DNA of 64,000 nt, taken from positions 248,001 through 312,000 of the forward strand of contig CAJJBJ010000003.1 in the NCBI GenBank assembly GCA_905182455.1, given 5' to 3'. Numbering within the stretch: position 1 is the stretch's first letter; each line of letters starts with the position of its first letter. Source of the DNA: an uncultured Planktomarina sp. GTDB taxonomy: Bacteria; Pseudomonadota; Alphaproteobacteria; Rhodobacterales; Rhodobacteraceae. Positions 3,246 through 26,472 of this stretch are shown here, one piece after another. A program made the translations under genes and the position numbers. The notes beneath the pieces are model-generated. The model saw nothing but the letters and a program-made list of their open reading frames with translations. It did not search any database and was not told the origin of the DNA.

Positions 3246-5720
3246 ATGGCTGCAGAAGAAGTTGACCCAGCAAAACTCGAAATTGCAGACGAGTTGATTG
3301 CGGAGCGTAATAATTTCACACCAGGTGAAACACCTGATGATATGACCCCCTGGCAGCGGCCAATCACTGCGGCAATTGATATTTTAAATAATTGGGTTGG
3401 ACGGATCATCTGCTTGTTAATAATCCCATTGATCGCTGTTGTCGTGATCGAGGTGTTCTCGCGTAATACATTTTCCATAATGGCCAATAACGGCTGGGGC
3501 GATCTTGCCCGCTCTTTAGGTCTTGGCCCCACAGTCTTTGCCTACGACATCAGCCGCATGGTCGCAGGCGTACTATTCATGGCTGCAGCAGGTTACGGCT
3601 TGATGCGCGGAGTACATATTCGCGCGGATTTTTTGTATCGAAATTGGTCTGACAAAACACAAGCCACCGTTGATGCAGTTCTCTATTTGGCGCTTTTTCT
3701 GCCATCAATGGCATTGTTTACTTGGATTTCAGCAAAATTTTTCATGGTTGCCTATCTCACCGGTGAAACCGCTTTTGACAGCACTTGGTCACCCGCACTA
3801 TGGCCGGCAAGGATTGCCATGCCCATTGGCGGCGCCCTACTGTTCCTGCAAGGTTTCCCAGAATTGTTCCGAGCCTTTCACAAGATGGGCAAGGAACGCG
3901 AGCGTGTTTTCTTATGGGGCACAGCAGCCGTCCTAGTAGTGATTGCATTAGAAATGTGGGTTCCAGGTATTTTACCAATTTTTGAGTGGGTCACAGCTCT
4001 GTTCGAGCCGGGCGGATTTTTTGATATGCCAAAACCTGTCATTGGTTTGATCATGTTGGGCACCATGATCTTTGTAATTTTTATTGGCTTCCCTATATCA
4101 TTTACATTGATTTTCTTGGCATTTGGCTTTGGCATTTGGGGCCTTAACTTTAAATTAACTGGCCTCCTAATGACTTTGAATACGAATTCAACCATGTTGA
4201 GCGACCAGCTAATGGCAGTGCCCTTGTTTATATTAATGGGTATTGTGATGGAAGCAGCGGGATTGATGGAGCGTTTATTTTCCTCGATTCAAATGATCAT
4301 GTCACGTGTGCGTGGATCACTTTACATCGCAGTCTTGATCGTCTCAACAATCTTTGCTGCAGCAACCGGTATTGTAGGTGCATCAGTTACCATCCTGGGA
4401 ATTATGGCTGGGGCAACTATGAGCCGCTCAGGATATAATGTAAGACTTTCTGCGGGAGCAATTACCGCCGGTGGGACGCTGGGCATCTTAATACCGCCGT
4501 CAATAATGCTGATTGTGATGGGTCCTGTGCTAGATGTATCCACTCTAGACCTATTTCGTGGTGCGTTTGTGCCGGGTGCACTACTTGCTTCACTATACTT
4601 GATTTACACATTGGGCCGCTGTTGGTTAAATCCAGAGCTGGGTCCTATTCTTGCGGAAGCAGATCAGCCAAAGACATCAAACAACTACCGCTTGGAAGTT
4701 ATTCTAATTTGTATTGGCGTTCTCGCGATTTGTAGAGTGTTTGGGCTCGCTCTCGGTGGTGCCTTTGGATTTATCCCATTTGGTGGTCTGATTGTTTTAC
4801 TGGCAGCGCTACTTATAAGCTATCGCGCATATAAAAACCTAACCGTGCTGCGAATTGTTACGCCTATCGTGATCGGCGTACAGATCATATATTCACTCTC
4901 TCAGCTTATGGCCGTGGACGGTGTAGAGTTTGGACTTTTCTACCAAATTGCATGGTTAATTTTTCTTGGCTTCGGTACCTATAAAGCAGTTGGCCTGTAT
5001 TCCACCACTACAGCAAAAAACTTCCACTTCTCAGACTTGTGGAATGAGTTTTTTGCTGGGCTGATGCCTCCAACTATTCTAATTTCCTTTGCTTTGGGAT
5101 CCATTTTGATGGGATTTGCGACTCCAGCCGAAGCCGCAGCTATGGGTGCATTTGGATCAATCCTATTGTCATTAGCTTACGGAAAGTTCAAAATTGCCAG
5201 CTTCTTTGATAGCTTAATTAAAGCTTTGGAAATCACAGTTTTGATTATGTTTTTGGTCGCAGCCTCAAATTTCTTCGGAGCCGAGTTCTCGATGCTTGGG
5301 ACACCAAAAATGATGACCGAAGTTCTGCTTGGGTTGGACATGTCGCCGTATATGATCTTGATCATAATCATGGCTCTAATCTTCGTACTTGGGTGGCCAC
5401 TGGAATGGGTGCCAATTGTTTTGATAGTCCTACCAGTTTTACTCCCCACTGTGATGGCACTGGACCTTCCAGGCTTTGAGAGCCAGTACGACAAAATGGT
5501 TTGGTTTGGAATCTTGGTAGCCGTGAATTTACAAACCGCATGGCTCAGTCCTCCTGTGGCACTATCAGCTTATTTTCTAAAGGGCGTAGTACCAAATTGG
5601 GATTTAAAGGACATCTACCTTGGCATGATGCAATTCATGGTGATCCAATTGATCGGGCTGGTCCTCTTGTTTAGCTTCCCACAATTGGTCCTGTGGTTGC
5701 CGCGCATTATGGGCGGATAA
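3246..5720 (+). CDS. dctM: TRAP transporter fused small and large permease (DctQ-DctM)
   Basis: An 824-residue inner-membrane protein joining both TRAP permease subunits. The first roughly 230 residues are a DctQ-like four-helix unit, with MVAGVLFMAAAGYGLMRG followed by HIRADFLY. From about 255 onward it is a DctM-type permease of the IT superfamily, with GIPF-like GFPISF, the GITVxxxG-like GIVGASVTILG, and the helix GTLGILIPPSIMLIV. DctM alone is normally about 430 residues. Here the DctM half is near 570, with roughly 130 extra, mostly hydrophobic residues between about 470 and 600. Together with DctP it should drive sodium-coupled carboxylate uptake. Confidence 0.92.
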   Translation: MAAEEVDPAKLEIADELIAERNNFTPGETPDDMTPWQRPITAAIDILNNWVGRIICLLIIPLIAVVVIEVFSRNTFSIMANNGWGDLARSLGLGPTVFAYDISRMVAGVLFMAAAGYGLMRGVHIRADFLYRNWSDKTQATVDAVLYLALFLPSMALFTWISAKFFMVAYLTGETAFDSTWSPALWPARIAMPIGGALLFLQGFPELFRAFHKMGKERERVFLWGTAAVLVVIALEMWVPGILPIFEWVTALFEPGGFFDMPKPVIGLIMLGTMIFVIFIGFPISFTLIFLAFGFGIWGLNFKLTGLLMTLNTNSTMLSDQLMAVPLFILMGIVMEAAGLMERLFSSIQMIMSRVRGSLYIAVLIVSTIFAAATGIVGASVTILGIMAGATMSRSGYNVRLSAGAITAGGTLGILIPPSIMLIVMGPVLDVSTLDLFRGAFVPGALLASLYLIYTLGRCWLNPELGPILAEADQPKTSNNYRLEVILICIGVLAICRVFGLALGGAFGFIPFGGLIVLLAALLISYRAYKNLTVLRIVTPIVIGVQIIYSLSQLMAVDGVEFGLFYQIAWLIFLGFGTYKAVGLYSTTTAKNFHFSDLWNEFFAGLMPPTILISFALGSILMGFATPAEAAAMGAFGSILLSLAYGKFKIASFFDSLIKALEITVLIMFLVAASNFFGAEFSMLGTPKMMTEVLLGLDMSPYMILIIIMALIFVLGWPLEWVPIVLIVLPVLLPTVMALDLPGFESQYDKMVWFGILVAVNLQTAWLSPPVALSAYFLKGVVPNWDLKDIYLGMMQFMVIQLIGLVLLFSFPQLVLWLPRIMGG

Positions 5721-5726
5721 AGAAAC

Positions 5727-5760
5727 AAAGGGGCGGCCCAATCGGGTCGCCCTTTTCTTT
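5727..5760 (+). terminator. Rho-independent terminator of the TRAP operon
   Basis: A 13-bp GC-rich stem with two G-U pairs, centred on GGGCGGCCC-AATC-GGGTCGCCC (about 5731-5752), is followed by TTTTCTTTT. It ends the dctP-dctQM operon and abuts the 3' end of the decayed GGDEF gene on the opposite strand. Confidence 0.85.
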
Positions 5761-6250
5761 TATTGGATCGTAAGATCCGACTTTTGATCTTTAAAAAATT
5801 TGTGTTGACCACGCCCTACCTTTTTACTGGCATAGAGCGCCGCATCGGCATGCATTGCCTCAGGATCTGGATCTGGGTTAGTCATGCGAAATCGCTGTGC
5901 CAGCACTTCTTGAGATGAAGCAACTATGTTGATCAAACAAAACCGGCTCATCCAATTTGGCAATGATGCGTTGTGCAATCCTGTGTAGGAAAACCGGATC
6001 CGTCACCCTGACAAATATCAGCACAAACTCGTCGCCGCCCACCCGCACGACACAGTCTGCGGCTCGAGTCTCGTTGCTCAAAATGTCGCACTTCCTGCAA
6101 CACATGGTCACCCGCAGCGTGGCTAAAGATGTCGTTAATCGTTTTGAATTAATCCAAATGCATGCAGGCAAAAGGGACTTTTCTCATGATCAACTGATCC
6201 AAATTCTGGGTCATAGCCCGACGGCTTTCAAGACCGAACTCTGGAACTCT
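5760..6250 (-). pseudogene. Decayed GGDEF-domain (diguanylate cyclase) gene
   Basis: Read on the minus strand, this stretch spells most of a GGDEF domain in broken frames. In order it gives ESRRAMTQNLDQL (domain start), then LD-stop-FKTINDIFSHAAGD, where the normal LDxFKxINDxxGHxxGD motif is cut by a TAA. A frame change leads to VVRVGGDEFVLIF, which retains the GGDEF core, and another leads to the domain end ADAALYASKKVGRGQHKFF. An intact domain would make cyclic di-GMP. With one internal stop and at least two frameshifts no enzyme can be made. Any N-terminal sensor domain is gone or lies in unrecognisable DNA beyond about 6250. Confidence 0.85.
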
Positions 6251-6572
6251 GTAGGTAGTTATAGCCCTTAAAATTATTAATATTCTCACTTTTTAGGCAC
6301 CATATGCGCCATATTTTGGGCACCAGTTATTTCTAAAAGGTTGTCACAAACGTCTAGGACTTGAAGCTTCAAAAGACTGGTTTTAAAGTAGCAAAATAGA
6401 GAGTGTTTTATCATTAGACTAGGTTACAAAGTCACCCTGCCCTTCTCAGGAAGTTTTGTCTGAAAGTGCGTCAACTACAATTGACGAAAATGCATTTTGC
6501 ATCTGATCCATTTGCACAATAAGGTGATGATTAAGGTAGTTGTTCAGTTTATAGTAGTTAAGGAATATATTT
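6251..6572. other. Gene-free stretch upstream of qmcA
   Basis: About 320 A/T-rich bases with no supported gene. The first part may be residue of the decayed GGDEF gene. Near 6470-6485 there is a small GTCAA-N6-TTGAC inverted repeat. AAGGAA about 9 nt before the next ATG is the likely ribosome site of the SPFH gene. Confidence 0.5.
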
Positions 6573-7598
6573 ATGTATTTAGAAGATATTTTAAGCATCA
6601 TTTTTCAGCCTACAATCTGGTTTTTTATTCTGGTTGTGGTGATCTTGCGGTTATCGATTAAATTTGTGCCCCATAACAGAACCTATCTAATTGAAAGGTT
6701 TGGTAAGTTTAACACTGTGCAGCAAGCAGGGCTTAATTTTATTATCCCTTTTATCGACCGAGTTTCTGCTGACCGTTCGCTGAAAGAGCAGGCTGTCGAC
6801 ATCGATAGCCAAAGCGCGATCACCAAGGACAATATTTCTCTCAGTGTGGACGGGGTGCTCTATTTCCGGGTGCTCGATCCATACAAAGCGACCTATGGTG
6901 TTGACGATTATGTCTTTGCTGTAACCCAACTGGCGCAGACGACGATGCGATCAGAATTGGGTAAGATGGAGCTGGATAAAACTTTCGAGGAGCGCGATTT
7001 ACTCAACACAAACATTGTTGTAGCCATCAATCAGGCCTCTGCGGCGTGGGGAGTCCAAGTTTTGCGTTATGAAATAAAAGACATCGTCCCACCGCAATCA
7101 GTAATGCAGGCTATGGAGGCTCAGATGAAAGCTGAGCGTGTGAAGCGGGCACAGATTCTGGAGTCCGAAGGTGACCGCCAAGCTGCGATCAACCGCGCCG
7201 AAGGTAAGAAGGCCTCAGTGGTGCTGGCGGCTGAAGCTGAAAAAGACGAGCAGGTGCTGCGTGCCGAGGGTGAGGCCAAAGCCCTTGTTGCCGTGGCCGA
7301 TGCTCAGGCGAAAGCCTTGGTTATGGTGGGTAAAGCCGCTAATACCCCTTCTGGACAAAAAGCGATTCAGCTCGAGCTAGCGACCAAGGCAATCCATGCT
7401 AAAGAAATGATAGCTAAACACTCATCGCTAGTCTTGTTGCCCGATGGCGCTACTGACGCCGCTACCGTCGTTACTCAAGCGATGGCAATCATCCAAAAGA
7501 TTTCCACTACCAATGTATCTTCTGCTGCAATGCAGTCTTCAGATATCCAAGCCGAACCATCCCGTGGTTCCGACACTTCTAGCCCTTGGGATAAGTAA
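6573..7598 (+). CDS. qmcA: SPFH/stomatin-family membrane protein (QmcA-like)
   Basis: A 341-residue protein with one N-terminal transmembrane segment (about residues 12-28). An SPFH/band-7 domain follows from about 33 to 190, with the typical stretches NRTYLIERFGKF and GLNFIIPFID. A long Ala/Glu/Lys-rich helical region (about 190-265) should form a coiled coil. Such slipin-like proteins build large membrane-microdomain assemblies and assist membrane proteases. The next gene, an NfeD-like protein, begins 2 nt after the stop. That pairing is the standard SPFH-NfeD operon and supports the call. Confidence 0.92.
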   Translation: MYLEDILSIIFQPTIWFFILVVVILRLSIKFVPHNRTYLIERFGKFNTVQQAGLNFIIPFIDRVSADRSLKEQAVDIDSQSAITKDNISLSVDGVLYFRVLDPYKATYGVDDYVFAVTQLAQTTMRSELGKMELDKTFEERDLLNTNIVVAINQASAAWGVQVLRYEIKDIVPPQSVMQAMEAQMKAERVKRAQILESEGDRQAAINRAEGKKASVVLAAEAEKDEQVLRAEGEAKALVAVADAQAKALVMVGKAANTPSGQKAIQLELATKAIHAKEMIAKHSSLVLLPDGATDAATVVTQAMAIIQKISTTNVSSAAMQSSDIQAEPSRGSDTSSPWDK

Positions 7599-7600
7599 GA

Positions 7601-8077
7601 ATGGACCCTCATAGTTTTCAACTACCTCTGGAGCATTGGCTTTTCATTATAGGGATTGGCCTTTTGGTCATCGAGATTGCCTTTTTTGGCTTTGCTACCT
7701 TTGTTTTGTTTTTCGTCGGCATTGCGATGCTTATAGTGGGCGCGTTAATGGCGTTTGGCGTGCTGCCGGTAAGGATCGATATTGCAATTGGTGCAGTATC
7801 CTTGCTGACAATCTCTGAGGCGGTTCTGCTGTGGAAGCCACTGAAGAAAATCCAATCATCTAAAGAATCGGCCAAGGTCGAAGTAGGCTTTGTTGGGCAC
7901 CGATTTCAGGTGCAAACAGACATCGCGCCGGACTTGCCGGGCACCTACACCTATTCTGGCATCGAGTGGGCCGTTGTCAGTAACACTACAATCCATCGTT
8001 TTACTCAGGTCCAAGTTATAAAGGCAGATGTTGGCCAACTCACCGTGACGCCGACAGAGGTGCTGTCAGACAAATGA
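7601..8077 (+). CDS. NfeD-family membrane protein partner of QmcA
   Basis: A 158-residue protein with two or three transmembrane helices (about residues 14-85). A C-terminal soluble OB-fold-like domain follows (about 92-153), including YSGIEWAVVS and a VGxxG-like VGFVG. This is the short NfeD1b type, without the ClpP-class protease half. It follows the SPFH gene by 2 nt, so translation is coupled. NfeD proteins act with stomatin-like partners in membrane quality control. The first copy of a dispersed repeat starts immediately after the stop codon. Confidence 0.9.
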   Translation: MDPHSFQLPLEHWLFIIGIGLLVIEIAFFGFATFVLFFVGIAMLIVGALMAFGVLPVRIDIAIGAVSLLTISEAVLLWKPLKKIQSSKESAKVEVGFVGHRFQVQTDIAPDLPGTYTYSGIEWAVVSNTTIHRFTQVQVIKADVGQLTVTPTEVLSDK

Positions 8078-8079
8078 GA

Positions 8080-8188
8080 ACAAGCATCGGATTGCTGGCA
8101 CAGCCTAAATCTATGCGCTCAATAATTGCCGCCACTCGGCGAGAGCAGCGGCACGGCTTAGCTTGAAATTGATACGTGAACAGAGGTG
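8080..8188 (+). repeat. Dispersed intergenic repeat, copy 1
   Basis: About 109 bp nearly identical to 8736-8847 and clearly related to 11462-11573 and 10211-10300. Shared blocks include AAATCTATGCGCTCAATAAT and GCCACTCGGCGAGAGCAGC. Read on the minus strand the copy encodes RINFKLSRAAALAEWRQLLSA followed by TAG, a peptide conserved in the other copies. It starts 2-3 nt past the nfeD stop codon. Confidence 0.85.
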
Positions 8189-8262
8189 ACGCGCGCAGCA
8201 GTTGCCACAATAACAAGGACATACATCGCGGCAATCCCCTTTAAATTTTATAGCATGCAAGA

Positions 8263-8616
8263 TCAGCGTGCCGCGATAAGCCCAATTTCAACAGTGAACT
8301 GAGATGCCGCGAGCCGTGGCGATTCGACTGCAGCACGACAAGGCGCCGCACCACCTTTGGACCATTGGTCCCAAACAATATTCATTTCTTCGAAATCGTC
8401 CATGCTGCACAGCCAAATTGTGGCCGTAAGTACTTTTGACTTATCGGTTCCAGCCTCAGTAAGAAGTCCGTCGATTTGGTCTAATATGGCCTTAGTCTGT
8501 TCTGCGACGCTGGTACCAGGAGCCTTCAAGGCCACCTGCCCTGCCAAGTACACAGTATCTTTGTGGGTCACTATCTGGCTCATACGGTCAGTTGTGTGAA
8601 AGCGTTCAATTGTCAT
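8263..8616 (-). CDS. RidA-family protein (enamine/imine deaminase type)
   Basis: A 117-residue single-domain protein of the YjgF/YER057c/UK114 family. The stretch PCRAAVESPRLA near the C-terminus holds the arginine that binds the substrate carboxylate in RidA, and EIGLIAA follows as in the family. RidA proteins hydrolyse reactive enamine/imine intermediates made by PLP enzymes. The start is placed at 8616 rather than an upstream in-frame ATG at 8655, because a GGAAAT ribosome site precedes it and the shorter protein matches the usual length. It is flanked by two repeat copies and stands alone, so its metabolic partner is unknown. Confidence 0.88.
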   Translation of the reverse strand: MTIERFHTTDRMSQIVTHKDTVYLAGQVALKAPGTSVAEQTKAILDQIDGLLTEAGTDKSKVLTATIWLCSMDDFEEMNIVWDQWSKGGAAPCRAAVESPRLAASQFTVEIGLIAAR

Positions 8617-8948
8617 TTTGATTTCCAATTTAATGTGGTTCCTTAATTTTAACATATCGCACGCAAAGCAAAAATGTATACATATTTTGATCCTTCCCTA
8701 GTGAATTGGGCCAGTCAATGCTATCAAACTAAAGGGAACAAACATCAGATTGCTGGCACAGCTTAAATCTATGCGAGCAATAATTGCCGCCACTCGGCGA
8801 GAGCAGCGGCACGGTTTAGCTTGAAATTAATACGTGGATAGAGGTGCAGAGCTCTGCACCAAGAGGACCGCTTCTGGGCCACCTTATCATCCAAAGAGAC
8901 CACAAAGCCGCTCTACCCGTCTCAAGTGATTTTGTTTGACAAAACCGT
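8617..8948. other. Gene-free stretch holding repeat copy 2
   Basis: This 332-base gap contains the ridA promoter region and repeat copy 2 (8736-8847). Beyond the copy, the minus strand continues with a degraded coding-like stretch that aligns loosely with the upstream part of copy 3. No intact gene is seen. Confidence 0.6.
8736..8847 (+). repeat. Dispersed intergenic repeat, copy 2
   Basis: About 112 bp matching copy 1 with few differences. The minus strand encodes RINFKLNRAAALAEWRQLLLA then TAG. Differences from copy 1 include a synonymous Ile codon change and two amino-acid replacements. The orientation is the same as in the other copies. Confidence 0.85.
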
Positions 8949-10016
8949 TCAGATTGCTGCTGCAATCGCTTTTCCACAGGTCACTGTATCTGCCGTTCCC
9001 CCAAGATCACCTGTTCGCAATTTGGGCTCGGTTAGAACGGCCTCTATTGCGGTCATGATCCCTTGCGCGGCTTCCGAATGTCCGAGATGTTCTAGCATCA
9101 TCGCGCCCGACCAGATTTGTCCTATGGGGTTGGCTATGCCCTTTCCCGCGATATCGGGTGCAGAGCCATGTACTGGCTCAAATAACGAAGGAAATTTTCG
9201 CTCTGGATTGATATTGCCAGATGGTGCAATGCCTATAGTTCCGGTGCAGGCTGGCCCCAAATCAGACAGGATATCTCCAAAAAGGTTTGACCCTACAACA
9301 ACATCAAAACGGTCAGGGTGCAGGACAAACAATGCCGTTAGAATGTCAATATGATATTTATCAACCGAGACGTCAGGATATGATTTTTGCATCTCGATAA
9401 CACGTTCGTCCCAGTAAGGCATCGTGATGGAGATACCGTTTGATTTGGTCGCCGAAGTCAGTTTTCCACCACGTTTTTGCGCAAGTTCGAAAGCATAGCG
9501 CAAGATCCGATCCACGCCGACCCGCGACATAACAGTTTCCTGCATGACAATTTCACGGTCTGTTCCGGGGAACATCTTTCCACCAATCGACGAATATTCA
9601 CCCTCAGTATTTTCACGTACGATCAGCATATCTATGTCACCAGGACCACGCCCGGCCAATGGTGACGTCACGCCGGGCATCAATTTGGCAGGACGTAGGC
9701 TGACATATTGGTCGAACTCCCGGCGGAACTGCAAAAGAGATCCCCAAAGCGAGACATGATCAGGTACAGTATCCGGCCAACCTACCGCACCAAAAAAAAT
9801 CGCATCATGACCGCCAATTTGGTCTTTCCAGTTGTCCGGCATCATCTGCCCATGTTGCTGGTAATAGTCACATGACGAAAAATTAAATTGGTCAAAGCTA
9901 AACTCCAAACCATACCTATCCGCCGCAGCATTCAAAACGCGAAGCCCTTCTGGGATCACTTCCGTGCCAATTCCGTCCCCTGGTATTACCGCAATGTTCA
10001 TCTTGTTGTTGGCCAT
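8949..10016 (-). CDS. ttuC: Tartrate dehydrogenase / D-malate dehydrogenase-like beta-decarboxylating dehydrogenase
   Basis: A 355-residue member of the isocitrate/isopropylmalate dehydrogenase family. It shows IPGDGIG (11-17), SLRP (106-109), the substrate-loop RENTEGEYSSIGG (134-146), TKSNGI with the catalytic lysine at about 191, the metal-binding GDILSD (248-252) and the NAD site PVHGSAPDIAG (281-291). The loop wording and SLWGSLLQFRREFD are those of the tartrate/D-malate (TtuC/DmlA) branch rather than LeuB. It should oxidise D-malate, tartrate or a related hydroxy acid with NAD and Mn or Mg. AAGAGGAAC precedes the ATG. The gene stands alone between repeat-bearing gaps. Confidence 0.88.
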   Translation of the reverse strand: MANNKMNIAVIPGDGIGTEVIPEGLRVLNAAADRYGLEFSFDQFNFSSCDYYQQHGQMMPDNWKDQIGGHDAIFFGAVGWPDTVPDHVSLWGSLLQFRREFDQYVSLRPAKLMPGVTSPLAGRGPGDIDMLIVRENTEGEYSSIGGKMFPGTDREIVMQETVMSRVGVDRILRYAFELAQKRGGKLTSATKSNGISITMPYWDERVIEMQKSYPDVSVDKYHIDILTALFVLHPDRFDVVVGSNLFGDILSDLGPACTGTIGIAPSGNINPERKFPSLFEPVHGSAPDIAGKGIANPIGQIWSGAMMLEHLGHSEAAQGIMTAIEAVLTEPKLRTGDLGGTADTVTCGKAIAAAI

Positions 10017-10539
10017 GATGATGTTCCTCTTTGATCGTTATTTCGACGCCTTGCAGTTACTACCGCACCAGTCACTTTGTAGACTTCATTCATTATATAT
10101 CGGTGCAGCCAGCGATACCACAGTCCAAAGGCCGTCAAGATTCTATTATGTTAAGACCGTTTTACAGCGATGAAACCTAAAGTAGCCTGCCCGGTGCTGT
10201 CAAAGTAATGGAAACAGCCATCACATTTATGGCATAATCGAAATCTATGCACTCAACAATTGACGTCAGTCGGCTAGAGCAGTGGCCCAGTTGTCTAGAG
10301 TTACACTCCAATGGAACAGCTCCCCCAACCCCTGTTGCGCCTTTAACAGACCAGAGTGTTACAGGGGGGTAGGTTGTCGGCTTGCGGCTTACATATAAAG
10401 CCCCCTAGATTAGCCTATTTGGGAGGCATTAGGAGCTGAAATTTGGCCGGGAGCAGACCTCCGCTGGGGCGTTAAATCCTATCTGATTGAATTTTCAACC
10501 AACCAGAGATACTTTAAGTAGAGGCTTCGGAGGGTGTAG
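10017..10539. other. 523-bp gap with degenerate repeat copy 4
   Basis: No gene is supported. The stretch holds the promoter region of the dehydrogenase on its left side, the most diverged repeat copy (10211-10300), and a 7-bp CCCCTGT/ACAGGGG inverted repeat around 10327-10367. A GGAGG-like ribosome site lies just before the hydrolase ATG at 10540. Confidence 0.6.
10211..10300 (+). repeat. Dispersed intergenic repeat, copy 4 (degenerate)
   Basis: The core GAAATCTATGCACTCAACAAT plus the following CAGTCGGCTAGAGCAGTGGC aligns with copies 1-3 in the same orientation. On the minus strand the conserved peptide survives only as NWATALAD, then a TGA in place of the tryptophan codon, then RQLLSA and TAG. 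It appears to be an older, decayed copy. Confidence 0.7.
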
Positions 10540-11463
10540 ATGTTTCAGGGATTTGTTGAAGATTGGATCGATGGTGAAGGCGCTAAGATTTTCGTGCGTC
10601 GCGCCGGACCTTTAGGTGCGCCGCCTGTAGTCTTATTACATGGCTACCCACAGACGTCAGCCATGTGGAACGGTGTCGCGCCAATTCTCGCCCAATCCTT
10701 TCAGGTCATTTGCCCTGACTTGCGCGGGTATGGTCGTTCAAGCAAACCGCCCACTGACGAGGTCCACAGCCCTTATTCAAAACGCGCAATGGCGCAAGAT
10801 ATTGTGGCGATGATGAGCACCTTAGGCCATGATCGATTTTTCATTGGGGCACATGATAGGGGCGCTCGCGTGGCGCATAGGCTCGGTCTTGATCATCCAA
10901 AAAAAGTGATGGCAATGACACTGCTCGATATTGCCCCTACTAGGGAGATGTACGCAGGCACAAATGCCAAATTTGCGACAGCGTACTGGCACTGGTTCTT
11001 CTTGATACAAAAGCACCCTATACCCGAGCAAATCATTGGAGCGGATCCGGATAACTTTTGGAAGCTAAAGTGTTTTAACCAAGCTGGGGGCGATAATCCC
11101 TTTTTGCCAGAAGCCTTAACAGAGTATCTGACGGCTTTTTCCAACCCAGAAGCCATCCGAGCAAGCTGTGAAGACTACCGCGCTGCAGCGTCCATCGATA
11201 TTGCTCATGATGATCAGGACGGCACACGAAAGCTGAGCATGCCAGTCCAAACTCTTTGGGCAAAACGCGGCGTGATCGAGGCCTGTTTCGACGCGCTTGA
11301 TCTCTGGCGGAAACGTGCTGACTGCGTGGAGGGCGAAGCTTTGGATGCGACCCACTACATGGCCGAAGAAATACCCGGTGAGATTACCGTCAGAATGGCT
11401 GATTTTTTTAGCAGGCACATGACCGATCAGGACCCTATCCAGTGGGCACTTTCAAACAAATGA
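10540..11463 (+). CDS. Haloacetate dehalogenase-like alpha/beta hydrolase (fluoroacetate dehalogenase type)
   Basis: A 307-residue alpha/beta hydrolase. The oxyanion region is LLHGYPQT (32-39). The nucleophile region is HDRGAR (105-110), with Asp106 as nucleophile and Arg107/Arg110 in place of the carboxylate-binding pair known from fluoroacetate dehalogenase. Asp130 is the likely acid and His272 the base. Residues matching the fluoride pocket are also present: His151-Trp152 in YWHWF and Tyr213 in CEDYRA. In the characterised enzyme these residues allow C-F bond cleavage. The sequence thus predicts a haloacetate dehalogenase, although some relatives with the same fold act on other esters. The gene stands alone, with repeat copies on both sides. 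Confidence 0.85.
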   Translation: MFQGFVEDWIDGEGAKIFVRRAGPLGAPPVVLLHGYPQTSAMWNGVAPILAQSFQVICPDLRGYGRSSKPPTDEVHSPYSKRAMAQDIVAMMSTLGHDRFFIGAHDRGARVAHRLGLDHPKKVMAMTLLDIAPTREMYAGTNAKFATAYWHWFFLIQKHPIPEQIIGADPDNFWKLKCFNQAGGDNPFLPEALTEYLTAFSNPEAIRASCEDYRAAASIDIAHDDQDGTRKLSMPVQTLWAKRGVIEACFDALDLWRKRADCVEGEALDATHYMAEEIPGEITVRMADFFSRHMTDQDPIQWALSNK

Positions 11464-11573
11464 AAACCCGCATCAGATTGCAGGCAAAGCCGAAATCTAT
11501 GCGCTCAATAATTGAAGCCACTCGGCAAGAGCACCGGCACGGTTCAGCTTGAAATTGATACGTAAATAGAGAT
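11462..11573 (+). repeat. Dispersed intergenic repeat, copy 3
   Basis: Begins at the last base of the preceding gene's stop region. On the minus strand it encodes RDLYLRINFKLNRAGALAEW, then LQLLSA and TAG. The frame stays open upstream on the minus strand to about 11625, which is longer than in the other copies. Most differences from copies 1 and 2 are at third codon positions. Confidence 0.85.
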
Positions 11574-11744
11574 CGCGACCAAACCCACCCTTTTGGTCCA
11601 AATTAGTTTCGAGTGTCGTCCAAAGCCCAAGCCTTCAGTTTCAATAAAAACACCTGTAAGCCGCAATCGACGATTCCGTTAAAGCAAAGACTTCACCCTT
11701 TAGAGGCACTTTTGCAGACACAGGTTAAAATAAATAAAACATGA

Positions 11745-17012: not shown

Positions 17013-17684
17013 ATGACAGATACACCCATCCGATCCGCATCGACCCTTATAATTTTGCGCAACTTCGCTTCGAGGCCACAGGTGCTTATGGGCCAGCGCG
17101 GGTCAAAAGCGGCATTTATGCCCAATAAATTCGTATTTCCGGGCGGTGCAGTGGATACAGCCGACAGCGCCATTCGGCTCGCGCAGCCCTTGACCGATCG
17201 ATGCCACGCCAATCTACAGCAAGACAGTACGGGCCCCGCGCCCGAAACCCTCGCTGTCGCGGCCATTCGGGAGTTGTGGGAAGAAACTGGCCTCATGCTT
17301 GGCGCCTTAGAAGCTTGGCCCGATGCGCCTGAAGACTGGGCAGATTTTGCCAAAGCCGGGTTTCGCCCCTCAGCCGCAAATATGTATTTCTTTTTTCGCG
17401 CAATCACTCCCCCGGGCGCACCCCGACGCTTTGATGCGCGATTTTTTCTGGTCAATGCCGATCAGCTATCAGGTGATTTGGACGATTTCTCCAATGCTTC
17501 TGATGAATTATCGCATCTGCAATGGGTCTGTTTGGATGAAGTCCGCTCGTTAAACCTGCCGTTTATCACCTCGGTGGTTTTGGGCGAACTGGTAGGAATG
17601 ACCGAGATTGGCGCGCCAAATTCCGTTCCATTTTTCAAAAACCAAGATGAGGAAAGCTTGTTTCTCAGGCTGCAAGGATTATAG
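17013..17684 (+). CDS. Nudix hydrolase
   Basis: A 223-residue Nudix protein. The Nudix box is partly recognisable: AAIRELWEETGLML supplies the REx2EExG core that binds Mg, while the preceding region FPGGAVDTADS is spaced further away than in the canonical 23-residue box. This NUDT7/CoA-like or long-insert subtype hydrolyses nucleoside diphosphate derivatives; the substrate is unknown. It follows the DUF983 gene by 10 nt, and its 3' end overlaps the converging transporter gene by 6 nt. Confidence 0.85.
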   Translation: MTDTPIRSASTLIILRNFASRPQVLMGQRGSKAAFMPNKFVFPGGAVDTADSAIRLAQPLTDRCHANLQQDSTGPAPETLAVAAIRELWEETGLMLGALEAWPDAPEDWADFAKAGFRPSAANMYFFFRAITPPGAPRRFDARFFLVNADQLSGDLDDFSNASDELSHLQWVCLDEVRSLNLPFITSVVLGELVGMTEIGAPNSVPFFKNQDEESLFLRLQGL

Positions 17685-18578
17685 CAGTAAGATCAACATC
17701 ACCACAGAGGCGCTTAAGAGCAGAATGCCCAGAGCTTCACTGCGGCGTAATTTCTCGCCAAAGACAAAAACCGATATCGCGAATGACGCCAAGATCTCCA
17801 CTTGACCCAGCGCTTTAACATAGGCCGCGTTTTGCAAAGCAAAGGCAGTGAACCAAGCCATTGAGCCAAACAGTGACAACAGCCCCACCCAGACAGCCAC
17901 GCGCCACGCCTGCACCACCGCTTTGATTTGCTGGGGTTCGCGCCATGTCAAAAACAAGGCCATGCCCACAAGCTGCATCAAAATAGCAGCCATAAGCGTG
18001 ACGCTGGCGCGGGCAAAAACGTCTTCCGCCCAAATATGCAGCGTAGCGCCCCGGTAAAATACCGCGCAGGCGCCAAACAATATTCCGCATGATAGGCCAA
18101 GCGCGGTGGCTTTGTTGAAAAACCTTGGGCCTTCAGATCCTGCAACTTGCGGCGTGTCAGACAGCACGATCACCCCCAGTACCCCAATTGAGATGGCCCC
18201 AAGTGCAGGTATGCTCACACCCTCTCCCAAAAACAGCAAGCCAAAACCCACCGCCAGCAGCACCTCAATTTTCTTGAACGTGATTCCGACTGTGAAGTTG
18301 CGTTGCTGAAACAGGGCGACCACGCACATAGTGGCACTAACTTGGCAGAGGCCTCCGGTGGCGGCAAAGGCCCAGAATGGCCAATCCACCCGCGGCAAGC
18401 CATATCCACGCACCAAGGAATAGCCGATGGCCAGCGCGCTAATCAAAGGGGCCGAATATAGGAAACGAGCAAAGGTCGCACCGCCCGTTGAGAGCGTACC
18501 TATCCGCAACCGCTTTTGAACCATAAAGCGGAAGGTTTGGGCAAAGGCTGCAAACAGCGTGACTGGGATCCATAACAT
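17679..18578 (-). CDS. EamA/DMT-superfamily permease
   Basis: A 299-residue protein with about ten hydrophobic helices arranged as two EamA halves (about 1-145 and 150-299), the drug/metabolite transporter fold. A basic loop, VQKRLRIG, sits early, and FGEKLRRSEALGILL near the C-terminus is typical of the second repeat. Members export amino acids, nucleotide precursors or other metabolites; the substrate cannot be predicted. It is 17 nt downstream of the desaturase gene and probably co-transcribed. Confidence 0.85.
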   Translation of the reverse strand: MLWIPVTLFAAFAQTFRFMVQKRLRIGTLSTGGATFARFLYSAPLISALAIGYSLVRGYGLPRVDWPFWAFAATGGLCQVSATMCVVALFQQRNFTVGITFKKIEVLLAVGFGLLFLGEGVSIPALGAISIGVLGVIVLSDTPQVAGSEGPRFFNKATALGLSCGILFGACAVFYRGATLHIWAEDVFARASVTLMAAILMQLVGMALFLTWREPQQIKAVVQAWRVAVWVGLLSLFGSMAWFTAFALQNAAYVKALGQVEILASFAISVFVFGEKLRRSEALGILLLSASVVMLILLL

Positions 18579-18595
18579 AACGCAGGCTTAGGCGA

Positions 18596-19492
18596 TTACT
18601 TATCCCTAGACCAGAGTGGATGCGGCACCGGATCTTTGCGCCGGAAAAGGTGGTGCCGGAACAGCTGCCCATAATTTTGATAGACATAGCCATGATTTAG
18701 CTGCAGGAACTTGTCTTTTTGCGCACGATAGAAAGCCGGCAAAGCATACCATGCAATTTGCGGATTCAAGTGATGCACCGCGTGAAAATTATTGTTTAAA
18801 AACAAAAACGCCAACAGTCCACGATCTTCAACAACAGCGGTGCGTGCGCCCACATCTTCATGAGCGCGGTGTTCGGCATAGGTGCGAATTTTCAAAAGGC
18901 TCAACCCGCCATAGGCCGCGATTAGATAGGCCCAAATCGGAAATTCAGCTTGGATCAGCAATACAACCACCAATGCGCAGGCCGGGACGTGGATCACCCA
19001 AGCCCAAAGTACTCTGCGGTCGCCCGCACGAGCTTCATGCCAATCGCCCAGCATGAAATAGACTTGCGAGATTAATGCGCCGAGCAACAACCGCCCCGCT
19101 AATGTTCCATTAGCCAAGAATATCCAGCGCCCAAGTCGGGGCATCTTCTCCCATCTGGCCGGGTCTAGATAATTGGTTTCAGGATCATCGTAGGGATCAG
19201 TCAGGCAGGCGTCTTGGTGATGCGCTAAATGCATATCGCGAAACCGTCCGAATGGGATTAGGAGGTTTAGCGAAGCTAATACCAAAGCCGCATTCACCCA
19301 AGGCCATTTGGTAGGATGACCGTGAATGACCTCATGTTGTAGCGACGATTGCAGGGCAATTGCCAAGGCTAAACCCGGCACAGCAATCCAGAGCGGCAGG
19401 AACAGCAAGGCCATCCAAGCCCCATAGCAGCCAAGCAATGCTGCAAGCGTGGGCCATTCGGTGTGCAATTTTGGGCGGGGCGAAGACATCAT
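18596..19492 (-). CDS. Fatty acid desaturase / carotenoid-hydroxylase-type membrane di-iron enzyme
   Basis: A 298-residue membrane protein with the histidine clusters of the membrane di-iron desaturase superfamily: HEVIHGH (about 53-59), HLAHH (about 88-92) and the C-terminal HAVHHLNP, plus EHRAHE between them. Four to five hydrophobic helices separate them. Enzymes of this fold insert double bonds into acyl chains or hydroxylate carotenoids; which applies cannot be decided. It lies divergently from an HTH regulator 96 bp away, which may control it. Confidence 0.85.
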   Translation of the reverse strand: MMSSPRPKLHTEWPTLAALLGCYGAWMALLFLPLWIAVPGLALAIALQSSLQHEVIHGHPTKWPWVNAALVLASLNLLIPFGRFRDMHLAHHQDACLTDPYDDPETNYLDPARWEKMPRLGRWIFLANGTLAGRLLLGALISQVYFMLGDWHEARAGDRRVLWAWVIHVPACALVVVLLIQAEFPIWAYLIAAYGGLSLLKIRTYAEHRAHEDVGARTAVVEDRGLLAFLFLNNNFHAVHHLNPQIAWYALPAFYRAQKDKFLQLNHGYVYQNYGQLFRHHLFRRKDPVPHPLWSRDK

Positions 19493-19588
19493 CTACAAGA
19501 AGTTATAGGGTTTTGAACACTTGCGATATTTGGAATATTATGTATTTTTATTAACTATAATTTATATAAATCACCAATTGAGATTTTA

Positions 19589-20437
19589 ATGGACAAACGT
19601 GACCGCTCAGCCCTCTTTAGAACGCGCCTGCAAACCGCGATGAACCTCAGCGGTGACACGCAGTCGAGCCTGTCGCGGAAGACCGGAGCAGATCGCTCAA
19701 CCCTGTCGCAAATTCTTGTCGGCACCGATGCGCGGCTGCCAAATGCCAATTTGGTGGCGGAATGCGCGCAATCTCTGGGCGTTTCGGCGGATTGGATTCT
19801 GGGATTGTCGGACCAGCCGGAGCCCGCCGCACAGGTTTTGGCCCAAGCCATGACAATGGCCGATGCGCCCCGCGCCCTGATTGATGCGCAAATCTTTGCC
19901 TGGCACCAAGAGGCTGCCGGATATAAAATCCGCCATGTCCCAGCTGGGTTGCCAGATATGATCAAAATTCATGAGATGCTGGAATGGGAATATGAACCAA
20001 CCCTTGGTCGCACCATCGGCCAAGCAATTGGCGCATCTGAGGATCGTTTAAACTGGATGAGCAATGCCCAGTCCGACTATGAGATCGCCCTGCCGCTCCA
20101 TGAACTCTATGCCTTTGCCCGCGCTGAGAGTTATTATCACGACTGTCCCCGTGACATTAGGATCAAACAGCTTGAACATCTCAAAACCTTAGTGCAGCGG
20201 CTCTATCCGTCTTTGCGCCTGTCACTCTTCGACGCCCGGCGTGTGTACTCAGCCCCCATCACAATTTTCGGACCATTGCTGGCGGTGATCTATCTGGGGC
20301 AAAAATATCTGGTATTTCGGGACCGCGAACGGATCGGCGCTTTGAGCCAGCACTTTGATGGGTTGATCCGGGAAGCACATGTAGGATCGCGCGGCTTGCC
20401 GGATTTGATCCAAACTCTCTTGGATGAAATCTCATAA
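19589..20437 (+). CDS. HTH-type (XRE/Cro-like) transcriptional regulator with C-terminal domain
   Basis: A 282-residue protein. The N-terminal HTH spans about 24-70, with SSLSRKTGADRSTLSQIL as the helix-turn-helix and NLVAECAQSLGVSADWILG closing the domain in Cro/CI style. The remaining roughly 200 residues are a regulatory domain of unknown ligand, present in other Rhodobacterales regulators of this size. It is divergent from the desaturase, the most likely target, across a very A/T-rich 96-bp spacer. It converges with the carnitine operon at its 3' end. Confidence 0.82.
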   Translation: MDKRDRSALFRTRLQTAMNLSGDTQSSLSRKTGADRSTLSQILVGTDARLPNANLVAECAQSLGVSADWILGLSDQPEPAAQVLAQAMTMADAPRALIDAQIFAWHQEAAGYKIRHVPAGLPDMIKIHEMLEWEYEPTLGRTIGQAIGASEDRLNWMSNAQSDYEIALPLHELYAFARAESYYHDCPRDIRIKQLEHLKTLVQRLYPSLRLSLFDARRVYSAPITIFGPLLAVIYLGQKYLVFRDRERIGALSQHFDGLIREAHVGSRGLPDLIQTLLDEIS

Positions 20438-20452
20438 GCCGCACGCCTCGGA

Positions 20453-21208
20453 TTAGACTTTTGGATCAGGATTTTCTGTATGCCCATCCACGGCAATCAC
20501 CTGCCCCGACACCAAACGTGCGCCCTTGCTACATAAAAACAACGCCATATTGGCGACATCTTCTGCAGTGACCAAACTACGCATAGAGGTGCCCCCAGCA
20601 TATCCATCGTAAATATGCTGATAGCTGGTGCCTTTGGCTGCTGCTTCACGCTCCATCACCCCCTGCATGCGAGGGCCTTCCACTGCGCCCGGGCAAATTG
20701 CATTGGCCCGTACACCTTCAGGGCCCCATTCCATAGCAAGGGTTTTCATCAACCCTATGATGCCCCATTTGGCCGCCGCATAAGGCGCGCGATTTGGAAA
20801 GCCATAAAGACCCGCGGTCGAGGAGGTTAGCACGATTGATCCGTGCGTGGCTTTCAACATTGGACCACCATATTTCGCCGCCAAAAACGCGCCTTCAAGG
20901 TTCACAGAAACGCAGCGTTGCCAGTCTTCGATTTTGATGTCTTCCACCGCTGCAGTTGGACCGGCGATCCCGGCATTGGCGCAAAGAGCATCCAATTCGC
21001 CCCATTGCGCGGTTATCTCAGCAAACAACTCGGCCACCTGGGCCTCATTGCTCGCATCGACTTGGCTTTTGCCCCAATGCGCCGGACAAGAGGCCAGACA
21101 GTCTGCGTCAACATCCGTGACCCAAACCTCAAAGCCTGCGGCGTCAAAGGCCTGGCCCATCGCGCGCCCAATACCGTTGCCACCCGCGGTGATCAGAACC
21201 CGGTTCAT
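20453..21208 (-). CDS. Short-chain dehydrogenase/reductase of the carnitine operon
   Basis: A 251-residue classical SDR. It has the cofactor motif TAGGNGIG (7-14), the NAG motif LCANAG, the catalytic Ser in LTSSTAG and the YxxxK motif YAAAK. Its ATG overlaps the stop of the L-carnitine dehydrogenase gene by 4 nt. Such SDRs recur in roseobacterial carnitine clusters. A D-carnitine or other hydroxy-betaine dehydrogenase role is plausible but inferred from context. Confidence 0.85.
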   Translation of the reverse strand: MNRVLITAGGNGIGRAMGQAFDAAGFEVWVTDVDADCLASCPAHWGKSQVDASNEAQVAELFAEITAQWGELDALCANAGIAGPTAAVEDIKIEDWQRCVSVNLEGAFLAAKYGGPMLKATHGSIVLTSSTAGLYGFPNRAPYAAAKWGIIGLMKTLAMEWGPEGVRANAICPGAVEGPRMQGVMEREAAAKGTSYQHIYDGYAGGTSMRSLVTAEDVANMALFLCSKGARLVSGQVIAVDGHTENPDPKV

Positions 21209-22674
21209 TTCTTGCCTACCATACGACCAAGACCTTCGGGACGCGGCAGCACGGAATGAGCCTGCGCAATTCGTCCTAAGATATCTGCGATGTTCTCAGA
21301 GGGCAATGTGGCTTTGCGCGTCTCTAGGGAAACGTGGATCAACATATGCTCACCAGTCGCCAGCAAACGGCTGCCTTCAAACATCTGATGGAACAAGTGC
21401 ATCTTTTTGCCTGCCCCTTCAGCACAATAGGTCTCGATACGGATCACATGGCCTGCGTGCACCTCATCCACATGGCGGATATGGGTTTCGGCGGTAAAAT
21501 AGCTGCCCCCTGAAGCGATATAATCCGTATTGCAGCCCACAATCTCCATAAAGCGGTCCGTGGCATCGCCAAAGGCCTGCAGGTAACGCGCCTCATTCAT
21601 ATGGCCATTGTAATCTGTCCAATCCAAAGGCACCGCCCGGCGAAGCGTTTCGGTCAGACAGGTCAGATCCAGCGCTACGGCACTTCTGGGCATCTCTGCG
21701 CGGGCGTTTAAGAGGTGATCTTGCTCCTTTAACAGTGCACCAGCCCCCCAATCTTGGGTTTTCAACGCCCGCATCATGCCCACCAAATTGTTGTCGCGAA
21801 TGCGCTCCAACTCACGAATGGAATGCATGCCAGACTGCGCATCCGATTGATCCGAGATCATATCCACCAATTCATCGGTGAACTCAGGCACATCCATCAG
21901 CTTGGTCCAAGGCCATTGCAACGCGGGGCCAAACTGCGCCATAAAATGCCGCATACCGGCTTCGCCACCGGCCACACGGTAAGTTTCAAACAGACCCATC
22001 TGCGCCCAACGAATACCAAAGCCATAGCGAATGGCATTGTCGATTTCCTCAGTGGTAGCGATGCCATCTTTGATCAGCCATAGAGCCTCACGCCAAACAG
22101 CCTCCAAAAACCGATCTGCGATATGCGCATCAATTTCTTTGCGCACCCGCAGTGGATACATGCCCATATCACGTAATATACCCTCGGCACGTTCAACAAT
22201 CGTGAGATCGCTTTGATCCGTAGGCACAACCTCAATCAAAGGCAAAAGATAGACAGGGTTGAACGGATGACACACCATGATTTGTTCAGGTCGCATAGCG
22301 CCAGCTTGCAACTCAGAGGGTTTGAAGCCAGAGGTAGATGAGCCCAGCACGGCCGCCGGATCACAATGGGCCTGTAGGGTTTGATAGACCTTCTGTTTGA
22401 GGGCCAATTGCTCTGGTACGCTTTCTTGGATCCAAATCGCACCCGCCACGGCTTCCGAGATGGTGGCATGAAAACTTAACTGGCCTTCCTCTGGCAAAGG
22501 CGCCTCATAAAGCCCCGGCAAAGAGCGGCGCGCATTGCCTAACACTTCGCCAATTTTACGCTCGGCTTCTGGATCGGGATCAAATACCCGAACATCCCAA
22601 CCGTTGAGCAAAAACCGAGCAGCCCAACCGCCGCCAATCACACCGCCACCAATAATCGCTGCTATTTGTGTCAT
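21205..22674 (-). CDS. lcdH: L-carnitine dehydrogenase fused to betainyl-CoA thioesterase
   Basis: A 489-residue two-domain protein. Residues 1 to about 320 are a 3-hydroxyacyl-CoA-dehydrogenase-type enzyme, with the NAD motif GGGVIGGGW (9-17) and MVCHPFNPVYLLPLIEVV holding the catalytic His and Asn-Pro. This half matches L-carnitine dehydrogenase (EC 1.1.1.108), which makes 3-dehydrocarnitine. Residues about 345-489 are a hotdog thioesterase (LDWTDYNGHMNEARYLQ) matching betainyl-CoA thioesterase. One polypeptide therefore carries the first and third steps of L-carnitine to glycine betaine. The BKACE gene upstream supplies the middle step. Confidence 0.93.
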   Translation of the reverse strand: MTQIAAIIGGGVIGGGWAARFLLNGWDVRVFDPDPEAERKIGEVLGNARRSLPGLYEAPLPEEGQLSFHATISEAVAGAIWIQESVPEQLALKQKVYQTLQAHCDPAAVLGSSTSGFKPSELQAGAMRPEQIMVCHPFNPVYLLPLIEVVPTDQSDLTIVERAEGILRDMGMYPLRVRKEIDAHIADRFLEAVWREALWLIKDGIATTEEIDNAIRYGFGIRWAQMGLFETYRVAGGEAGMRHFMAQFGPALQWPWTKLMDVPEFTDELVDMISDQSDAQSGMHSIRELERIRDNNLVGMMRALKTQDWGAGALLKEQDHLLNARAEMPRSAVALDLTCLTETLRRAVPLDWTDYNGHMNEARYLQAFGDATDRFMEIVGCNTDYIASGGSYFTAETHIRHVDEVHAGHVIRIETYCAEGAGKKMHLFHQMFEGSRLLATGEHMLIHVSLETRKATLPSENIADILGRIAQAHSVLPRPEGLGRMVGKK

Positions 22675-22735
22675 TTAATTTATCCTACCATCTTCTAAAT
22701 CTGATACCTGCGTCTGTAACAGCAGCGACCGGCCC

Positions 22736-23650
22736 TTAGCCCCCAATTGGAGCGCGTTTGACCAAGCCCAATTTCTCGCGCACCTCAGCAGGGCCAATCA
22801 CCCGTGCGCCAAGATTTTCAATGATGCTCACTGCGCGGTCTACCAGCTGATAGTTTTCCGCCAAGACACCCCGATCCAGCATTAAATTATCTTCCAAGCC
22901 AACCCGCACATTGCCCCCTGCCAAAACAGAGGCCGCGACCAGAGGCATTTGATGCCGGCCCAAACCAAAGGCGCTGAAGGTCCAGCCGTCAGGCACATTG
23001 TTCACCATGGCCATCAAGGTGTTGAGATCATCCGGCGCGCCCCAAGGCACGCCCATACACAGCTGCACCAAAGCATTGGGCTCAAGCACGCCATCAGCCA
23101 CCAATTGCTTGGCATACCAAAGATGCCCAGTATCAAAAGCTTCAATCTCAGGCTTAACGCCCAGCTCTGTCATCATCCGGCCCATCGCGGTTAGAGTGCC
23201 CGGCGTGTTAGTCATAACGTAATCGGCTTCGGCGAAATTCATGGTGCCACAATCCAACGTACAGATCTCGGGTCGACATTGAGCAATATGGGCCACCCGT
23301 TCGCTGGCCCCAGCCATATCCGTGCCCGCAATGGGCGGCAAAGGGTTCTCTACATCGCCAAATACCATATCCCCGCCCATGCCAGCGGTGAGGTTCAACA
23401 CCACATCCACCTCAGCATCACGGATCCGGTCAGTCACTTCGCGGAACATCCCAATATCCCGGCTTGGCGCACCAGTTTCCGGGTCGCGCACATGGCAATG
23501 CACCACAGCTGCCCCAGAGCGCGCGGCCAATATGGCACTGTCGGCAATTTGCTTTGGGCTGCGCGGTACATGCGGGCTTTTGTCTTGAGTGGCACCAGAT
23601 CCGGTCACTGCACAGGTGATGAAAACTTCTCGGTTCATTTCTAGGGGCAT
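22736..23650 (-). CDS. BKACE-family dehydrocarnitine cleavage enzyme (3-keto-5-aminohexanoate cleavage protein family)
   Basis: A 304-residue TIM-barrel enzyme of the beta-keto acid cleavage family. The zinc ligands are in VVHCHVRDP (about 49-57), and the EAFDTGH stretch and the glycine-rich VRVGLEDN follow in family order. In carnitine degradation this enzyme joins 3-dehydrocarnitine and acetyl-CoA to give betainyl-CoA and acetoacetate. It heads the operon; GAGGAG 6 nt before the ATG at 23650 fixes the start. The next gene, 61 nt downstream, is the dehydrogenase/thioesterase. Confidence 0.92.
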   Translation of the reverse strand: MPLEMNREVFITCAVTGSGATQDKSPHVPRSPKQIADSAILAARSGAAVVHCHVRDPETGAPSRDIGMFREVTDRIRDAEVDVVLNLTAGMGGDMVFGDVENPLPPIAGTDMAGASERVAHIAQCRPEICTLDCGTMNFAEADYVMTNTPGTLTAMGRMMTELGVKPEIEAFDTGHLWYAKQLVADGVLEPNALVQLCMGVPWGAPDDLNTLMAMVNNVPDGWTFSAFGLGRHQMPLVAASVLAGGNVRVGLEDNLMLDRGVLAENYQLVDRAVSIIENLGARVIGPAEVREKLGLVKRAPIGG

Positions 23651-23724
23651 TGTGATCTCCTCTTTGTCTTGATCAATCTGTGACGGTTGTAAAAACCGAT
23701 TTGCCTATATACGAATATTTCTTG
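23651..23724. promoter_or_regulatory. Divergent promoter/operator region of the carnitine operon
   Basis: A 74-bp spacer between the operon's first gene (leftward) and the GlxA-type regulator (rightward). It contains CGGTT-N5-AACCG (23684-23688 and 23694-23698), a perfect 5-bp inverted repeat in a position suited to an AraC-type operator. No clear sigma-70 boxes can be assigned by eye. Confidence 0.45.
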
Positions 23725-24696: not shown

Positions 24697-24700
24697 GCTT

Positions 24701-25744: not shown

Positions 25745-25842
25745 CTTAAAGTCCTTTTGTTGCGGATAAGATAAGCGAACAATATGCAGCTGCAAGCCGA
25801 AAATAGATTGAGAACAAAAGATGAACTAGTTAGACTTTAGAA

Positions 25843-26472
25843 ATGATGTCAGCTGCCCCAACTTTTTTACAACGCAAGCCCACAGCCCCTGCCCCCATGC
25901 TGGAACTGTGGCCGGATCTGCGCTTGACCTTGGGGCGCGTGCATGAGGCTTGCGGCCCCAATCGGCGCAGCTTTGCGATGATGATCGCCCAAAAAACCCA
26001 AGGTCCAGTGTTTTGGATTGCGCCCCAATGGGCCACAGACAGGCTGCATGCGGATGGAGTACACCCCTTCATCTGCCCCGGCCGTCTGACGTTCCTCACC
26101 CCAAAACGCGCCGAAGACATCCTGTGGTGTGTTGAGGAGGTGTTGCGCAGCGGTGCGGTGCCGTTAGTGGTTGTGGATATCCCGAGGTTGCCAGCCCTCA
26201 CGCCAATCCGCCGCTTGAATTTGGCCGCAGAGACCGGGACGGCTGAGGGGGCATCACCACCGCTCGGGCTACTGCTCACCCCCGGTGATGGCGGCGCACC
26301 CGGAGTTGAGAGCCGCTGGCGTCTTGCTGCGGCCGTTCACCAAGGCCTCGGTGAGCAGTGGCATCTTGAACGGATCCGCAGCCGCAGTGATCCCCCACGC
26401 AATTGGCGAGTGTCCCGCCAAAACGGGCGCTACACGCTTGGCCCTTTGTCCAAAACAGACGACACCCTATAG
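25843..26472 (+). CDS. ImuA-like protein (RecA-fold accessory protein family)
   Basis: A 209-residue protein resembling ImuA-like proteins of alphaproteobacteria. The stretch AEDILWCVEEVLRSGAVPLVVVDIP and the following PIRRLNLAAETG match their conserved core, while the RecA-type P-loop is absent. ImuA works with ImuB and DnaE2 in damage-induced mutagenesis, but neither partner lies in this window. It stands alone between an aldo-keto reductase and an MFS gene. The identification is by pattern recognition and is moderately secure. Confidence 0.6.
   Translation: MMSAAPTFLQRKPTAPAPMLELWPDLRLTLGRVHEACGPNRRSFAMMIAQKTQGPVFWIAPQWATDRLHADGVHPFICPGRLTFLTPKRAEDILWCVEEVLRSGAVPLVVVDIPRLPALTPIRRLNLAAETGTAEGASPPLGLLLTPGDGGAPGVESRWRLAAAVHQGLGEQWHLERIRSRSDPPRNWRVSRQNGRYTLGPLSKTDDTL

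Follow-up and report, generated by a model that had tools for sequence, protein, structure and literature searches.

Ends of an IS6-family insertion sequence and its MITEs separate gene modules in a stretch gained by a Planktomarina genome

The window, the whole stretch of 64,000 nucleotides analysed here from an uncultured Planktomarina sp., carries four directly oriented copies of a short repeat. All copies lie within about 5.9 kb, among genes for stomatin/Band 7, NfeD-like, RidA-like, tartrate dehydrogenase-like, and alpha/beta hydrolase proteins. The features are listed below, where LE and RE are the left and right ends of an insertion sequence (IS).

5868–11735, no strand: stretch with all copies, ~5.9 kb; depending on the alignment, its left end shifts by up to ~140 bp and its right end by up to ~13 bp
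6375–6470, minus strand: LE piece, IS positions 1–97, with the start of the transposase gene
6453–8071, plus strand: module 1, stomatin/Band 7 gene (6573–7598) and NfeD-like gene (7601–8077); homology to genomes G018 and G005 ends in the flanking terminal repeats
8059–8192, minus strand: copy 1, RE, IS positions 684–817, containing the final codons and stop of the transposase gene, the tail, and the right terminal repeat, whose outer tip is at 8059
8059–8843, no strand: module 2, RE-ridA-RE, with a ridA-like gene (8263–8655, minus strand); the same unit lies behind phoB in genome G008
8717–8846, minus strand: copy 2, RE, IS positions 688–815 aligned; tip decayed, at ~8717 (alignment from 8719)
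8884–8946, minus strand: LE of copy 2, forming with 8717–8846 one MITE of ~230 bp
8949–10016, minus strand: TtuC-type tartrate dehydrogenase-like gene (TIGR02089, above cut-off), between copy 2, at its LE, and copy 3, at its tip
10193–10293, minus strand: copy 3, RE with an internal deletion and an in-frame TGA; similarity to a ~340-bp MITE subfamily continues to 10359
10540–11463, plus strand: alpha/beta hydrolase gene (dehalogenase-like), its last codons and TGA coming from the tip of copy 4
11445–11577, minus strand: copy 4, RE, IS positions 685–813 aligned (alignment from 11448), tip at ~11445; a ~525-bp MITE profile reaches 11589

The original prediction of four repeat copies in one orientation is borne out by BLAST, by profile, and by a 21-base core, which occurs four times in the window with up to three mismatches, compared with a mean of 0.00 in 100 shuffles. 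The copies had been placed at the right positions but with the wrong starts, the outer ~17–21 bases, which are the terminal inverted repeat, having been left off; the boundaries given here have been set by BLAST and by profiles of the IS ends. The minus-strand peptide RINFKL(S/N)RA(A/G)ALAEW, for which two to six further residues had been described, is present in the copies at 8059, 8717, and 11445 and is followed there by six residues and TAG. The in-frame TGA that had been assigned to copy 4 belongs instead to the copy at 10193, which matches the reference copy at 74%. Both LE pieces, at 6375–6470 and 8884–8946, had been missed. Copies 1, 3, and 4 show a recognisable RE without an LE, and copy 2 retains both ends. 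To the left of the 6375–6470 piece, the minus strand at 5878–6171 holds an open frame with a GGDEF-like motif (seen by eye), which looks like the remnant of a gene; the alignment with G008 stops at 5867.

Almost certainly, the repeat represents the right end of an 817-bp IS6-family IS of Planktomarina (RCA roseobacters), present here in decayed copies and MITEs. The conserved peptide is the C-terminus of the transposase, and it is followed by an untranslated tail and the terminal inverted repeat. The copies had been suggested to be duplicated 3' ends of a real gene, and that gene is the IS6-family transposase (NF033587). The family, which had been left without a name, has been placed in IS6, at family level, by profile scores: the transposase reaches 195.8 bits against NF033587 (IS6 transposase, cut-off 125) and 143 bits against PF13610 (DDE domain, cut-off 27). 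In a PF13610 profile search, transposase copies in congeners directly adjoin the repeat matches. The full copies in genome G011 encode proteins with the C-terminus HNHFNQERHFYSRDNFKLNRAAALTEWRQLLSA, directly before the stop, or close variants of it, and at locus L030 of another genus the peptide terminates an internally deleted transposase frame. Intact copies occur in congeners, and the IS is 817 bp long in all ten aligned full copies with flanks; the alignment uses 10 of 17 copies, the other 7, in which the N-terminal motif was not found, having been omitted. Homology starts at GG(C/T)ACTGTCAGAC-type ends and finishes at GTCTGACAGCACC-type ends, which are the terminal repeats, and the window copies map to the 3' portion of the IS.

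The repeat has a match in 18 of 61 genomes, namely in 15 of the 20 of the genus (the genome of the window included) and in 3 of 41 others, where the match is confined to query positions 47–109, the peptide-coding part. No relative of the repeat has been found in the plasmid collection. The genome of the window has nine strong matches, all on contig C3 and on one strand; three of them are window copies, the copy at 10193 being too diverged to appear among them. Its single PF13610 match is partial and lies within a 582-bp deleted element on contig C8, so nothing points to current activity there. Relatives of the IS are widespread: at least 571 of 594 candidate stretches of species genomes encode one. 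The matches listed (the best 80 were kept) come mostly from Rhodobacteraceae sensu lato, alongside a small number of other genera, Mesorhizobium and Hoeflea among them.

A large number of the RE copies are parts of MITEs, which have been found as paired ends without a transposase by profiles of both ends. Two coherent subfamilies are observed, of ~340 and ~525 bp. The first comprises five complete copies of 335–344 bp (G011 and G004), two of which resemble each other in the right flank and could represent a single site in two strains, and the second comprises five complete copies of 504–532 bp (G008, G000, G004, and G011). Copies align end to end in both cases, and neither subfamily has an interior that matches the IS. 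Of the window copies, the third carries interior sequence of the ~340-bp subfamily, and the fourth a little of that of the ~525-bp subfamily. In the fetched stretches, eight RE halves begin and four LE halves stop at positions 253–260 of the ~525-bp profile. One foreign flank is common to all four LE-half edges and another to four of the eight RE-half edges, and another element may once have inserted at these positions. Locus L141 of the genome of the window holds a ~525-bp MITE that is split at profile position 254/258 and permuted around a 2.4-kb segment (5237–5636, 5637–5886, 8306–8576, and 8577–8681 of the locus), and its cut edges bear foreign sequence common to G011, G004, and G018. One of these foreign flanks encodes an arginine- and cysteine-rich start that is reminiscent of small proteins near integrases.

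The ~5.9-kb stretch is a gain relative to 12 congeners. It is absent from the orthologous site in all 12 of the 19 congeners that have both flanks on one contig, and the aligned sides are 52–203 bases apart in each of them. A TRAP transporter gene borders the stretch on its left side, and an MttB and HAD gene on its right; both flanks are conserved in relatives. Within the stretch, gene segments are separated by element ends in one orientation. Relatives of the TtuC-type gene (77–79%) are present in 3 of the 19 other congeners. In two of these, G010 and G013, which have no repeat matches, a hydrolase gene comes next after the TtuC relative and on the same strand; the two window genes, in contrast, diverge and are separated by copy 3. 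The window hydrolase is closest to those of G001 (74%) and G019 (67%), the values for G010 and G013 being 50% and 45%. Given these differing nearest relatives and gene orders, the island looks assembled from different sources.

Two modules of the stretch recur elsewhere. The first, stomatin-NfeD, has counterparts at other loci in G018 (6453 to 8071, 88.6%) and G005 (6454 to 8074, 86.1%), and these homology edges place both edges of the module within terminal repeats. In G018 and G005 the module is bounded by bare tips of ~13–17 bases, with no longer element recognised, and in G014 and G016 the homology on the NfeD side ends at 8058, a single base short of the RE tip. Several modules have homology edges that are offset by 0 or 1 base from element tips. 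Locus L141 also holds a stretch of 8.4 kb (17509–25906) that is 99.5% identical to G018, compared with 88.6% for the stomatin module; one of its edges is in an RE piece, on the other side the sequence available for comparison stops, and it includes genes that look, by eye, like those of an amino-acid ABC transporter.

The second module, RE-ridA-RE, is a gene flanked by directly oriented copies at two non-orthologous loci, and its flanks are half-MITEs and not full ISs. In G008 it is 785 bp long, 85.0% identical, and located behind phoB, the TRAP/MttB site of that genome being empty. The flanking backbone, at 76–80% identity to G008, is somewhat more distant than the unit. A ridA gene is found in 2 of 20 genomes (E 1e-30). 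Element pieces lie within ~200 bases of the gene at four of eight phoB-like loci (G008, G004, G001, and G011), of which that of G011 may be a different locus since its gene is only 60% identical. At the phoB locus, G004 carries a single RE, G001 a single LE in roughly the same position, and G008 RE-ridA-RE; the first REs of G004 and G008 may or may not be one insertion.

At least 43 element copies are present in G011 and at least 41 in G004 (40 of 55 and 40 of 84 candidates scored, respectively). The copies are clustered in G011, where 25 of 42 neighbour distances are below 10 kb, with 5.2 expected at random and 15 as the largest value in 5000 simulations. Neighbours less than 20 kb apart are co-oriented in 25 of 29 cases in G011 (0 of 5000 shuffles) and in 20 of 23 cases in G004 (p 0.0002). 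Between these two genomes, 37 of 88 edges of homology blocks fall at elements, with 7.5 expected, in an unmasked test on fetched element-rich stretches that had been picked for holding elements. A first breakpoint test on element-masked sequence (19/46 and 12/46) has been set aside because masking itself breaks alignments. Among 132 element clusters, compared with stretches that cover only part of each partner genome, no clean empty site of a single element has been found, and three sites are common to two genomes.

Exact flanking repeats of 7–12 bases (slippage up to 3) are found at none of 102 paired elements, a count made with no positive-control IS family alongside, and flanking repeats of 4–6 bases occur at chance level. 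The 102 elements consist of 51 from the Planktomarina search (52 minus one cut by the locus end), including three from other genera, and a further 51 from other genera. The latter, copies of the IS group at loci L185–L259, are likewise free of flanking repeats of 7–12 bases, and the absence may therefore be a property of the IS group.

IS6 element ends and MITEs probably built the gained, module-carrying stretch, with IS26-like transfer as the most likely route. The transposase from an intact copy would act on RE or MITE ends, one end and its neighbouring gene would travel as a unit, and the unit would dock beside an end already in place; the flanking copies would decay afterwards. As the actual mechanism, such unit transfer may by analogy with IS26 equally well prove right or wrong, and it is favoured over its main rival, homologous recombination. 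Several points count against it. Neither a circle nor a transposition event has been seen, and the LE and RE flanks compared across copies of one genome show no cross-copy 8-base duplication, as would be expected of young cointegrates. The same holds for the single partial transposase match in the genome of the window, the bare tips around stomatin-NfeD in G018 and G005, the choice of element-holding stretches for the breakpoint test, and the lack of a recognised LE in three of the window copies.

It is also conceivable, at a lower level of confidence, that the genes are shuffled by homologous recombination of the RecA type, with the dispersed direct copies as its substrates. The transposase would then have put the copies in place at an earlier time without moving modules. 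The copies are numerous, close, and mostly co-oriented, which makes them ready substrates for recombination, and reassortment of flanks would erase target duplications as well. Also, the full copies in G011 differ among themselves by several per cent, so many of them are not recent. On the other hand, a crossover within copies should leave an entire or hybrid copy at each side, whereas the homology blocks often end at the outer tips, as for stomatin-NfeD in G018 and G005 and for the edges offset by 0 or 1 base.

Ordinary decay is improbable as a full account. According to this explanation, the ISs inserted independently, mostly the right end survived, and the genes between the copies are coincidental. 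Partial ends of all sizes are common, and copy 3 of the window is clearly decayed. However, decay alone leaves unexplained the coherent MITE subfamilies with common non-IS interiors, the absence of the stretch at 12 of 12 sites, and the presence of RE-ridA-RE at two non-orthologous loci.

The excess of synonymous changes noticed among the window copies holds in a larger set, with a crude nonsynonymous to synonymous ratio of ~0.29 of neutral in 48 gap-free short copies. The set comprises 89 RE copies, 30 of them from near-complete elements and 50 from short ones, the 9 intermediate copies having been dropped. The near-complete elements have no internal stops and a crude ratio of 0.37 of neutral (26 gap-free copies). 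Diversity is highest at the third and lowest at the second codon position in full and short copies alike. This common pattern, together with internal stops in 10 of the 48 short transposase-less copies, is explained by transposase ancestry, and the synonymous excess is best read as inheritance from coding ancestors. Nothing suggests translation of the short copies. The synonymous excess and the third-position diversity would also suit a translated mobile coding cassette with a functional peptide in the short copies, which had been the other suggestion of the original prediction. This reading is very improbable given the internal stops, the identical codon-position pattern of the full copies, and the lack of a conserved start region of its own, the homology starting within the transposase frame; the copies are the ends of an IS and its MITEs, and a translated peptide has been rejected for the short ones.

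Read inwards, the RE tip (8059–8077 and 11445–11463) encodes (V/A)LS(D/N)K followed by TGA, which provides new C-termini for the NfeD-like and hydrolase genes. A frame of at least 120 codons runs in at 2 of 110 RE ends, a count from which copy 4 is left out by the end-match rule and in which some loci are perhaps counted twice. Gene-end capture is therefore incidental, and it has been rejected as a general function. A function at the 3' ends of genes, either as a REP-like repeat, already disfavoured when the repeat was first described, or as a structured RNA, would fit the window copies, which touch gene ends and in two cases supply the stop codon, but it is hardly credible and has been rejected, given the rarity of gene-end capture, no Rfam match at the repeat, a double change in only 1 of 20 predicted pairs (13 sequences, covariation term +0.29), and a complete ~525-bp copy whose fold is no better than that of shuffled sequences (z -0.46 with DNA parameters).

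Returning to transposase-driven transfer, we tentatively suggest a cassette-like gene exchange in Planktomarina, in which IS6 and MITE ends would act as docking sites and single genes or operons would be gained, lost, and shuffled as units without target duplication. If true, such exchange may be a main channel of gene flux in this lineage, for which neither plasmids nor complete gene transfer agents, and almost no prophages, have been reported. A study of RCA genomes describes no complete gene transfer agents, prophages, or plasmids, with the exception of one incomplete prophage, and places IMCC1909 in P. temperata (PMC10675870). If the transfer mechanism holds, short MITE ends would suffice to make chromosomal genes portable, and the repeats would explain where variable islands start and stop. 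No description of this IS/MITE family has been found in the open-licence literature on Planktomarina/RCA mobile elements and on MITE translocatable units.

The element resembles members of the IS6/IS26 family in its IS6 transposase with a PF13610 DDE domain, its length of ~820 bp, its single gene, and its short terminal inverted repeats. The alphaproteobacterial ISPko6, as tabulated in a review, is 817 bp long, the same as the element here (PMC6807381). The 8-bp target duplication that is usual in the family is, in contrast, found at 0 of 102 elements here, although IS26 need not carry target duplications according to a review (PMC7986276). The same review gives two MITE examples for the IS6 family, MITEBth2 and MITEHarch3, of 227 and 336 bp (PMC7986276). 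The MITEs described here, of ~230, ~340, and ~525 bp, are similar to these in architecture and size, having both IS ends and no transposase. They differ in their many copies across the genus, their non-IS interiors, and the gene modules between copies.

The closest parallel to the arrangement is found in the translocatable units and pseudo-compound transposons of IS26. Direct arrays, missing flanking repeats, and translocatable units are described for IS26 in that review (PMC7986276). In both systems, unique segments lie between directly oriented copies and flanking duplications are often missing, and in both, units seem to adjoin other copies (PMC7986276; PMC7885326). Unlike in IS26 units, MITEs or single ends often serve as flanks here, ordinary genes of a marine chromosome make up the cargo, and the units are known from genome comparison only. 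IS26-type arrays are known chiefly from antibiotic-resistance regions. The similar architecture seen here consists in part of remnants without a transposase, and the genes that it organises are ordinary metabolic ones of a lineage abundant in the ocean.
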